Shown: piece after piece, positions 2-1,267 of the stretch
Numbering within the stretch: the first letter of the stretch is position 1
How the letters are laid out: every line of letters begins with the position of its first letter
Assembly: GCA_021413565.1 (NCBI GenBank)
Contig: JAIOQC010000016.1
Coordinates: 1 to 13,822 of the forward strand
Direction of reading: 5' to 3'
Length of the DNA stretch: 13,822 nt
Source: Candidatus Nomurabacteria bacterium
GTDB taxonomy: Bacteria; Patescibacteriota; Minisyncoccia; Phycocordibacterales; UBA9973
Made by a program: the position numbers and the translations under genes
The notes under the pieces: model-generated
Database searches by the model: none
Told to the model about the DNA's origin: nothing
Seen by the model: only the letters and a program-made list of their open reading frames with translations

Positions 2-724
2 CTTACAAAGTACGGTTTCGACGGTGCAAACGCTCCAGTTATCCGTGGTTCAGCCCTTAAAGCGCTTGAAGCAAAGGACAACACAGATGAATGGTCAAAG
101 AAGATCAAGGATCTTATGTCTACTCTCGACTCATACATCCCAATGCCTGAGCGTGCAACAGACAAGCCATTTATCATGCCTGTCGAAGACATTTTCTCTA
201 TCGAAGGTCGCGGTACAGTAGTTACCGGACGAATCGAACGAGGAACTGTTAAGGTTGGTGACGAAGTTGAAATTGTCGGTATCAACCCTACAACCAAAAC
301 GGTTATAACTGGTATCGAAATGTTCAACAAACAGCTCCAGTCAGGTATGGCAGGAGACAATGCAGGAGTACTCCTCCGAGGTACAGCAAAGGATGCTGTT
401 ACTCGCGGACAGGTTCTTGCAAAGCCAGGTACAACTACTCCTCATACAGAGTTCGAGGCAGAAGTTCTCATCTTGAAGAAAGAGGAAGGAGGCCGACACA
501 CTCCATTCTTCAACGGTTACAAACCTCAGTTCTACGTTCGTACAACTGACGTTACCGGTGAAGTGACTCTCAACCCTGGTGTTGAAATGGTTATGCCTGG
601 AGATACAGTTACCTTCAAGGTAAAGCTCCATGCTCCTATCGCTCTTGAAGAGAAGCAGCGCTTCGCTATTCGAGAAGGTGGAAAGACTGTTGGTGCTGGT
701 GTTGTAACAAAAATAATTAAATAG
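2..724 (+). CDS. tuf: Elongation factor Tu, C-terminal 240 residues (5' end off window)
   Basis: EF-Tu carries aminoacyl-tRNA to the ribosomal A site as a GTP complex. The frame is open from base 2, and the visible part starts just before the G5 nucleotide-binding motif (RGSALKALE), so the P-loop and switch regions lie outside the window. Domain 2 follows (DKPFIMPVEDIFSIEGRG, then VTGRIERG), then domain 3 with GGRHTPFFNGYKPQFY, RTTDVTG and the usual end FAIREGGKTVGAGVVTKIIK. Alignment by eye with E. coli EF-Tu is continuous with no gaps of note. An ATG at 116 is internal and not the start. tuf directly upstream of rpsJ is the common str-S10 junction. No terminator is seen after it; the spacer instead holds a heptad-armed hairpin whose first TAG is the tuf stop codon. 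Confidence 0.98.
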   Translation, partial: LTKYGFDGANAPVIRGSALKALEAKDNTDEWSKKIKDLMSTLDSYIPMPERATDKPFIMPVEDIFSIEGRGTVVTGRIERGTVKVGDEVEIVGINPTTKTVITGIEMFNKQLQSGMAGDNAGVLLRGTAKDAVTRGQVLAKPGTTTPHTEFEAEVLILKKEEGGRHTPFFNGYKPQFYVRTTDVTGEVTLNPGVEMVMPGDTVTFKVKLHAPIALEEKQRFAIREGGKTVGAGVVTKIIK

Positions 725-808
725 CGAATAGCGGATAGAGATAAGCGAAAAGGGAAACAGGTTCTGAATCCCATCATACTCTTAACTCTAAACCCTAATC
801 CCTAATAT
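722..808 (+). repeat. Heptad-armed hairpin element A (tuf-rpsJ spacer)
   Basis: The whole spacer is organised in 7-nt steps. Left arm: TAGCGAA (722), TAGCGGA (729), TAGAGAT (736), AAGCGAA (743). Right arm: ACTCTTA (778), ACTCTAA (785), ACCCTAA (792), TCCCTAA (799), ending 3 nt before the rpsJ ATG. The reverse complement of the right arm (TTAGGGA, TTAGGGT, TTAGAGT, TAAGAGT) resembles the left arm, so the arms can pair imperfectly. The apex (752-772) is itself palindromic: GGGA-aa-CAG-gtt-CTG-aa-TCCC. Element B shares this apex. Function is unknown. Confidence 0.8.
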
Positions 809-1171
809 ATGTCTACAGAATTAAAAACTAAAAAAACAAAAGCGGTGAAGAAAGAAGAGAATGCTACTATTCAACTTCGTATCCGTGTAAGAGCTTATGA
901 GAACAAAATCCTTGATGCATCTGTCAAGCAGATTATTGATACAGCCTTACGCTATGATGCAAAGATAGTTGGTCCAATTCCTCTTCCGACTGAAATCAAG
1001 AAATACACTGTGAATCGCGCATCTTTTGTTTTCAAAAATGCTCGTGAGCAATTCGAAATCAGGATTCACAAGCGTGTCATTGACATTCTTAATCCTAATC
1101 CGAAAACTATCGAAGCTCTCACAAACTTATCACTTCCGTCTGGAGTTGATATTGACGTAAAGATGATGTAA
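809..1171 (+). CDS. rpsJ: 30S ribosomal protein S10
   Basis: S10 is a 30S head protein, and in E. coli it also acts as NusE in antitermination. The 120-residue product has a Lys-rich N-terminal extension of about 17 residues relative to the 103-residue E. coli protein. The core follows: IRVRAYENKILD, then GPIPLPTEIKKYTV and EQFEIRIHKRVIDI, ending LPSGVDIDVKMM. GPIPLPT is the family hallmark. The start at 809 is the only sensible ATG. It lies directly after hairpin element A with no Shine-Dalgarno sequence. It is the first S10-cluster gene and is followed by rplC after a 96-bp spacer that holds element B. Confidence 0.98.
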   Translation: MSTELKTKKTKAVKKEENATIQLRIRVRAYENKILDASVKQIIDTALRYDAKIVGPIPLPTEIKKYTVNRASFVFKNAREQFEIRIHKRVIDILNPNPKTIEALTNLSLPSGVDIDVKMM

Positions 1172-1267
1172 CTAAGCAGCGAATAGAGAATAGAGCAAAG
1201 GGAATAGGGAAAATCAGGAACACTGAATCCCGCCCTATACGCCAATCACTATCCGCTATATACTATT
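1172..1267 (+). repeat. Heptad-armed hairpin element B (rpsJ-rplC spacer)
   Basis: This is the same architecture as element A. Left heptads: AGCGAAT (1178), AGAGAAT (1185), AGAGCAA (1192), AGGGAAT (1199), AGGGAAA (1206). Right heptads: CCCTATA (1233), CGCCAAT (1240), CACTATC (1247), CGCTATA (1254), TACTATT (1261), the last touching the rplC ATG. CTA recurs at 1235, 1249, 1256 and 1263, all multiples of 7 apart. The apex at 1207-1231 reads GGGA-aaat-CAG-gaaca-CTG-aa-TCCC, so it keeps the paired segments of element A while the loops differ. Confidence 0.8.

Follow-up and report, generated by a model that had tools for sequence, protein, structure and literature searches.

The window, by which we mean the whole analysed stretch of 13,822 nt, comes from a genome of the lineage Candidatus Nomurabacteria/Paceibacterota, which has 500 kb and is 84% complete. 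Around its beginning, Pfam identifies the genes tuf (EF-Tu), rpsJ (S10) and rplC (L3); the other gene names used here for the window were taken from the translations. The tuf-rpsJ spacer is filled by element A (722-808, plus strand, as are all elements of the window described below), a stem-loop built of GAATAG-type heptads, the first TAG of which is the stop codon of tuf. Its left arm is G-type (722-751, with TAG at 722, 729 and 736), its right arm is C-type (781-805, with CTT at 781 and CTA at 788, 795 and 802), and the apex between them, GGGAAACAGGTTCTGAATCCC (752-772), has the pattern GGGA-aa-CAG-gtt-CTG-aa-TCCC. Element B (1172-1267), of the same family, fills the rpsJ-rplC spacer. It consists of a G-type left arm (1178-1206), the apex GGGAAAATCAGGAACACTGAATCCC (1207-1231, pattern GGGA-aaat-CAG-gaaca-CTG-aa-TCCC) and a C-type right arm (1235-1265, with CTA at 1235, 1249, 1256 and 1263). 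Both apices were delimited by their letters and by RNA folding.

The coordinates, heptads and apex letters given for A and B in an earlier note on this DNA all agree with the sequence. Its view that the two elements are homologous is borne out: positions 714-757 and 1169-1212 (44 nt each) are 80% identical, and both elements can be aligned with copies in the congeneric genome G078. Selection on the structure of a common apex, which it had also suggested, finds no support here, since the G078 copies do not share this apex. As RNA, A is predicted to fold with -19.9 kcal/mol (z -2.83; 2 of 200 shuffles equally good) and B with -22.3 kcal/mol (z -2.85; 1 of 200), and their local lag-7 scores are 16 and 15. 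One cross pair between the arms of A and B, at -34.1, beats their own pairs (-17.3 and -23.0). In a search of the own genome with A as the query, only A itself and the right arm of B were matched, and the window has no match to Rfam 15 at the gathering score.

Heptads also occur at further sites of the window. A third stem-loop with GTAG-type heptads (6912-6999; fold z -6.2) fills the rpsQ-rplN spacer, which is just 4-10 nt long in 16 of the 22 congeners measured. In the rpsN-rpsH spacer there are heptads of the right-arm type only, CTAGCCACTAGAAACTATAACCTA (9545-9584), with a lag-7 score of 9 at a cut-off of 11 and a weak match (E 0.24) to the CTAG element. An array of AATTACG heptads lies in the rplF-rplR spacer (10514-10563), and its hairpin is not significant (z -1.6). 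Finally, AAAGAAC heptads 3' of the rplB stop codon (3811-3861) run into a terminator-type hairpin at 3830-3861; in genome G327, AGAAC arrays also sit ahead of terminator-like hairpins, resembling this site.

Some genes of the contig are presumably foreign to the usual operon order: a diacylglycerol kinase gene (PF01219, 4307-4717) together with an ORF without Pfam match between rplB and rpsS (3920-4717), and two ORFs without Pfam match, one of them on the minus strand, between rplE and rpsN (8209-9153). Between 13240 and 13822 the G+C content, about 0.36 before, climbs to about 0.6. The secY frame continues here into the antisense strand of a short-chain dehydrogenase gene (PF00106, minus strand), which is followed by a PF01636 fragment, also on the minus strand. 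This is probably a chimeric contig end.

Phase, polarity and position of the heptads

To quantify the phase, we counted spacers of 40-300 nt whose local score at lag 7 is 11 or higher and compared the counts with those in shuffles. In the sample of the own genome (41 of 102 contigs, 237 kb), 8 of 104 spacers pass this cut-off, while the shuffle mean is 0.25 and the maximum in 20 shuffles is 1; the 7-nt phase is thus real. The corresponding numbers are 10/183 in G068 (400 kb sample; shuffle mean 1.35), 11/131 in G052 (260 kb; 0.4) and 9/72 in G078 (140 kb; 0.2). Pooled over the four congeneric samples, 38 of 490 spacers pass, as compared to about 2 in shuffles, so that the excess of 7-nt periodicity in other spacers, on which the earlier note had made its claim depend, is present in all four. 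Among lags 5-15, the sole other excess in the own genome is at lag 14 (2 vs 0.05), and over the four samples lags other than 7 are near chance, except for 14 and, in G068, 8 and weakly 12. The 7-nt autocorrelation peak expected in intergenic DNA was found in part. Plain autocorrelation over 122 own spacers gave z values of 2.9, 2.7 and 2.7 at lags 7, 14 and 21, but lags 5, 8 and 17 each reach 2.7, hardly less than lag 7, and lags 1-3 are far higher. The weakness of this signal is explained by the small number of spacers which carry it.

The phase is also evident at gene borders. When at least three identical, G/C-containing 3-mers with an exact period of 7 were required within 50 nt of a gene end, 1033 genes gave 60 hits before starts and 61 after stops (these figures count word hits, not genes), where shuffles gave 3 and 5. 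With periods of 5, 6, 8, 9 and 10 there were 1-8 hits, which is the shuffle level. Genes were called with a custom hexamer-scored ORF caller, inspected on the window alone. Beyond the genus, five CTA at 7-nt steps are present in 104 of 286 genomes of the phylum, and five at 8-nt steps in 19. A reversed control (ATC, period 7) also matches dozens of the 286 genomes; it is not independent, because words such as CTAATCC contain ATC. A cleaner control is the one with 8-nt steps. Repeats of CTA spaced by 8 nt were seen in G173, G159, G214, G269 and G313, in some of them in higher numbers than at 7-nt steps, and the best lag of the AAAGT family is 8. The repeat period may be genome-specific.

Left arms are mostly made of G-type words (TAG, AGT, GTA, AAG) and right arms of C-type words (CTA, ACT, TAC, CTT). 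Six genome samples supplied 439 co-directional spacers of 40-250 nt. Their left arm is G-type in 25 cases vs C-type in 12, and their right arm C-type in 29 vs G-type in 9, CTAG words being counted as both. A G-type left arm is paired with a C-type right arm in 12 of these spacers (odds ratio 21.6, P 1.8e-9), and at periods 6 or 8 the 439 spacers contain no such arm pair. Among co-directional spacers with runs, 26 have both arms, 31 the right arm only and 20 the left arm only. The polarity claimed in the earlier note thus applies to most co-directional spacers; in convergent and divergent ones just 11 of 20 sides fit it. A strand-symmetric, telomere-like rule of "outward" polarity was rejected for this reason.

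The arrays lie close to the codons which delimit the genes: of those located within 30 nt of a gene end, 47 precede a start codon, with a median distance of 4 nt, and 37 follow a stop codon, with a median distance of 3 nt. The former are C-richer in 35 cases, G-richer in 8 and tied in 4. Of the latter, 21 are G-richer and 15 C-richer, with one tie; the polarity of the left arm is weaker than that of the right arm. In 44 distinct hairpins, the 5' flank has a median of 5 nt and the 3' flank of 9 nt (5 and 6 nt in shuffles), and the 3' flank is longer than the 5' flank in 34 hairpins and shorter in 7. We also considered the hairpin as a bridge that shortens the distance between stop and start, and rejected this idea: the folded distance is 15 nt vs 13 nt in shuffles (P 0.17).

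Pairing of the arms and folding across loci

The arms are kept complementary while their sequences change. In the tuf-rpsJ spacer, own arms pair with a mean of -25.4 kcal/mol vs -13.7 (sd 1.5) for arms swapped between species, and none of 20,000 permutations was as low as the own arms. This set (n=14) comprises all 13 genus spacers of at least 54 nt at this site and L052 from another genus. For nine CTAG-like spacers the values are -27.5 for own and -19.0 (sd 1.7) for swapped arms. When arms are swapped inside one genome, they often pair about as stably as the own arms do, which is what shared words would lead one to expect. Compensatory changes in the stems, on which the earlier note had also made its claim depend, find modest support by alignment folding. 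Changes on both sides of a pair were counted for two alignments (3 of 16 pairs and 6 of 22), but several pairs break, and the covariation terms are slightly unfavourable (+0.68 and +0.74).

Folding was also assessed in wider sets of loci. In 90 loci of the family, 64 of 173 tuf-rpsJ and rpsJ-rplC spacers measure 45-140 nt, and 46 of these 64 fold with z below -2. Another 41 loci contributed 14 spacers of this length, 5 of which fold; where a lag was significant (three spacers), it was lag 7 every time. In four congeneric genomes, spacers of 45-140 nt reach z below -2 in 133 of 222 cases when they are co-directional, in 44 of 48 when convergent and in 5 of 49 when divergent. The value for co-directional spacers without a T5 run is 58 of 100, a number that still includes terminators and other palindromes.

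Two genomes, picked for their richness in the phylum-wide CTA survey, show other architectures. Five array-filled spacers of G349 (52-149 nt) carry A/C-rich heptads before starts and do not fold (MFE 0.0). The arrays of this genome (L171-L180, e.g. L180:4901-5034 and 6295-6443) reach about 150 nt, and some adjoin what reads as an S14 ribosomal-protein gene. In G327 (L181-L190, e.g. L182:18024-18121), GTAG words form the left arm and CTGTAAG words the right arm, with a central hairpin.

Presence, absence and families at orthologous sites

From 24 genomes of the genus we recovered 19 tuf-rpsJ, 19 rpsJ-rplC and 22 rpsQ-rplN spacers; the rows of G049 (partial hits; L303, with length 0, and L150) were left out of these counts. 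The lengths at the three sites are bimodal: 36 of the 60 spacers measure 4-37 nt, one 54 nt and 23 measure 72-104 nt, with none at 55-71 nt. Among the 24 spacers longer than 50 nt, 21 fold with z below -2, the exceptions being L027 at the site of A and L030 and L040 at that of B. Lag 7 exceeds the 95% shuffle level in 14 of the 24 and lag 8 in 3. In L026, L029, L032 and L034, there are stem-loops at the same site without a significant heptad phase. The element is absent from 14 of 19 rpsJ-rplC and 16 of 22 rpsQ-rplN spacers of the congeners measured.

The filled spacers fall into families, which were assigned by eye and named GAATAG, CTAG, GTAG and AAAGT. At tuf-rpsJ, the GAATAG family is found in G000 and G078, the CTAG family in G074, G021, G052, G070 and G045, and the AAAGT family in G068, while rpsQ-rplN carries GTAG in G000, G055 and G074, CTAG in G052 and AAAGT in G068 and G076. 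Again by eye, one family recurs in several unlinked spacers of one genome, and families extend to other genera (the GAATAG type in L222, the AAAGT type in L052 and L264). With a CTAG-type query, 35 matches at E <= 1 were obtained in G052, a number that includes the query itself and hits on either strand. Further sites occupied in at least two congeners are rpmF-nusB and nusB-rnc (own genome and G068), rpsF-ssb (G052 and G078) and the borders of nusA (G052, G068 and G078). Comparison of the filled rpsQ-rplN spacer of G055 with the empty one of G072 revealed that the two differ by one unit placed right after the stop codon and that TAAATAT-ATG is kept; a target-site duplication could not be recognised in this one comparison.

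The arms of A and B, the conservation of which between relatives the earlier note had taken as decisive, align with those in G078. When A and B were aligned with three of the four copies seen in G078 (five sequences in total from the two genomes; the place at 358.6 kb was left out), 37 of 123 columns proved invariant, even though the identity at 4-fold sites of tuf and rpsJ is only 0.52 between the two species. The presence or absence of the element at fixed sites and the occurrence of one family at several sites support the idea of a self-spreading palindrome, one of the options in that note.

A rather unlikely alternative, in our estimation, is purely local mutation, in which 7-nt replication slippage and template switching between the arms would make and mend quasi-palindromes without movement or selection. 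According to the excerpt of PMC4692102, heptameric repeats are over-represented in many bacteria, and slippage related to the polymerase footprint was proposed as the cause. In line with this are the four stem-loops mentioned above that lack a significant heptad phase, and the arms of G327, which by eye are of mixed families. Against local mutation speak the gap in the length distribution between 54 and 72 nt and the fact that, judged by eye, one family can occupy unlinked spacers within a genome and also turns up in other genera. The invariant columns despite the divergence at 4-fold sites, together with the bimodality and the multi-site families, favour spreading over local mutation.

Known heptamer repeats, possible origin and significance

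The statement in the earlier note that no described element has a 7-nt phase and this polarity is wrong. The G-rich heptamer repeats of Xanthomonas and Nostoc, GGGAATC and GGGGA(C/T)T, have both, as stated in the excerpt of PMC4692102: their unit is 7 nt, they are intergenic, dispersed and degenerate, they have the same polarity and often form convergent inverted pairs capable of stem-loops, and close relatives differ in their length and sequence. In contrast to them, the words found here are mostly not quadruplex-forming (four GGG at 7-nt steps occur at 2 places in 1.37 Mb from six samples, vs 165 overlapping places for four TAG), the arms abut stop and start codons, and the paired arms constitute an operon-internal block of 72-104 nt that is absent in congeners. 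We take the Nostoc-type repeats to be the cyanobacterial STRR class, and the 7-nt unit, the dispersal in intergenic DNA and the inverted pairs of that type are all found here.

Other known systems share single features. The TAACTGA direct repeats of Beggiatoaceae, cyanobacteria and Bacteroidetes are located right upstream of starts, also in ribosomal-protein operons and before the L3 gene, and one reversed set in Flexibacter litoralis directly follows a stop codon (PMC4679880, in excerpt). In that excerpt they are nearly always direct and have no partner arm, whereas complementary left arms and several words per genus are present here, and tandem TAACTGA has 0 copies in six genome samples. In P6b of the Nostoc tRNA-Leu intron, degenerate heptads pair in a hairpin and repeat copies alter its length, but this structure resides in an intron and not between genes (excerpt of PMC3488679). 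The ribosome termination structure (RTS) is a stable structure just 3' of the stop codon; in contrast to the heptad stem-loops, it is depleted inside operons and has only two reported motifs, in a small gene subset, and the excerpt of PMC7518266 describes no 7-nt phase. A structure directly after the stop is what we see for the heptad hairpins, as judged by their 5' flank (median 5 nt, 44 hairpins) and not by the 40-nt-window energy used for the RTS. Among the open-licence PubMed Central papers listed, we found no prior report of heptad repeats in Patescibacteria or Parcubacteria. Compared to known heptamers, new are the host group (as far as searched), the presence or absence as a block and the filling of operon-internal gaps.

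Based on these observations, we favour the following reading, to which we give about an even chance: A and B represent a spreading palindrome of heptad type (STRR-like), tolerated or mildly useful after stop codons. It would be a dispersed palindromic repeat of about 70-100 nt with a stem made of 7-nt units, and gaps between genes that are presumably co-transcribed would gain or lose it as one block. The repeat would begin at or just after the stop codon and leave about nine bases before the next start unpaired; the mRNA is predicted to contain a single stem-loop adjoining the stop codon. We infer that a word family actively spreads or is copied between spacers of one genome, and that at a given site one family may be replaced by another over time, the arms staying complementary afterwards. 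The repeat would persist at places where a stem-loop separating stop and start does no harm or is of mild use against re-initiation, in the manner of a ribosome termination structure. This reading is backed by the phase, the position, the better pairing of own arms across species, the presence or absence as a block and the sharing of families. Several results speak against it: arms also occur singly, the five array-filled spacers of G349 do not fold, arms exchanged inside a genome often pair as well as own ones, the hairpin does not shorten the stop-start distance, some long spacers do not fold (three of 24 in the genus; only 5 of 14 fold in the 41 further loci), and neither a copying enzyme nor, in the one comparison of a filled with an empty site, a target-site duplication was found.

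Selection for an RNA role of the heptad stem-loop is possible. That the elements are primarily selected RNA elements seems improbable to us; in this case translation would be tuned from one co-transcribed gene to the next by the stem-loop, or by heptads to which a protein of 7-nt footprint binds. The arrays are tight to stop and start codons, hairpins are retained with changed arms (as seen from own vs swapped arms and, modestly, from two-sided changes), and several sites adjoin translation and housekeeping genes. Further, TAACTGA heptamers just before starts were proposed as translational sites (PMC4679880, in excerpt), and folding is far more frequent in co-directional spacers without T5 than in divergent ones, although the former count is inflated by terminators and other palindromes. 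On the other hand, most congeners measured do without the element at rpsJ-rplC and rpsQ-rplN, and its words vary between species.

It is tempting to go one step beyond the spreading palindrome and to postulate a new class of mobile palindromes in Patescibacteria, with a 7-nt unit, G-type left and C-type right arms, block insertion after stops and an enzyme that copies in 7-nt steps. We consider this a doubtful proposition. If it were true, machinery copying in 7-nt steps would explain the heptamer repeats of cyanobacteria, Xanthomonas and Beggiatoaceae. Y1 and reverse transcriptase genes were tested, and neither emerged as a transposase or copying enzyme of the heptad repeat. Y1 (PF01797) is present in 136 of 286 phylum genomes, and its association with CTA heptads is weak (odds ratio 2.6); reverse transcriptase (PF00078, in 102 of 286) was rejected as the copier, being no better than Y1 with an odds ratio of 2.64, and both ratios ignore phylogeny and genome size.

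Very improbable, and largely refuted by element size and Y1 gene flanks, is an origin as REP elements mobilised by a Y1/RAYT transposase. Some copies have GTAG-type heptads, 19 of 24 congeners possess Y1 genes, and GTAG-tagged REPs are likewise palindromes located after genes and between co-directional genes (excerpt of PMC3733652). The heptad repeat differs from them in its heptad build, in its size (filled spacers of 72-104 nt vs 20-40 nt for REPs) and in the missing association with Y1 genes: among 26 readable flanks from 30 Y1 loci, which show different palindromes, none has heptads within 60 nt, and G000, G036 and G072 (incomplete assemblies) have heptads or the stem-loop but no Y1 match. 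Many Y1 genes of the genus (L192-L220) have flanking palindromes, for instance CTAGGTCTTGCCTAG or GAAGTCCGACTTC, and similar ones recur in G068 spacers. Judged by sequence, these genes with their palindromes look like a REP/RAYT-type system of Patescibacteria.

We give hardly any credence to transcription terminators or attenuators within the operon, which stem-loops in operon spacers might bring to mind, since the stems of A and B are not followed by a T-tract and the lone terminator-like match in 650-1350 has 5 pairs and lies on the minus strand.

The heptad stem-loops bear on a more general question. Several authors have described heptamer repeats in bacteria, but neither their cause nor their role has been established (excerpts of PMC4692102 and PMC4679880). 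Here, heptads make up whole stem-loops in very small genomes, inside essential ribosomal-protein operons, and congeners have or lack them at the same site. Such sites make the movement of the repeat, the unit of 7 and a role of the stem-loop between stop and start directly testable.
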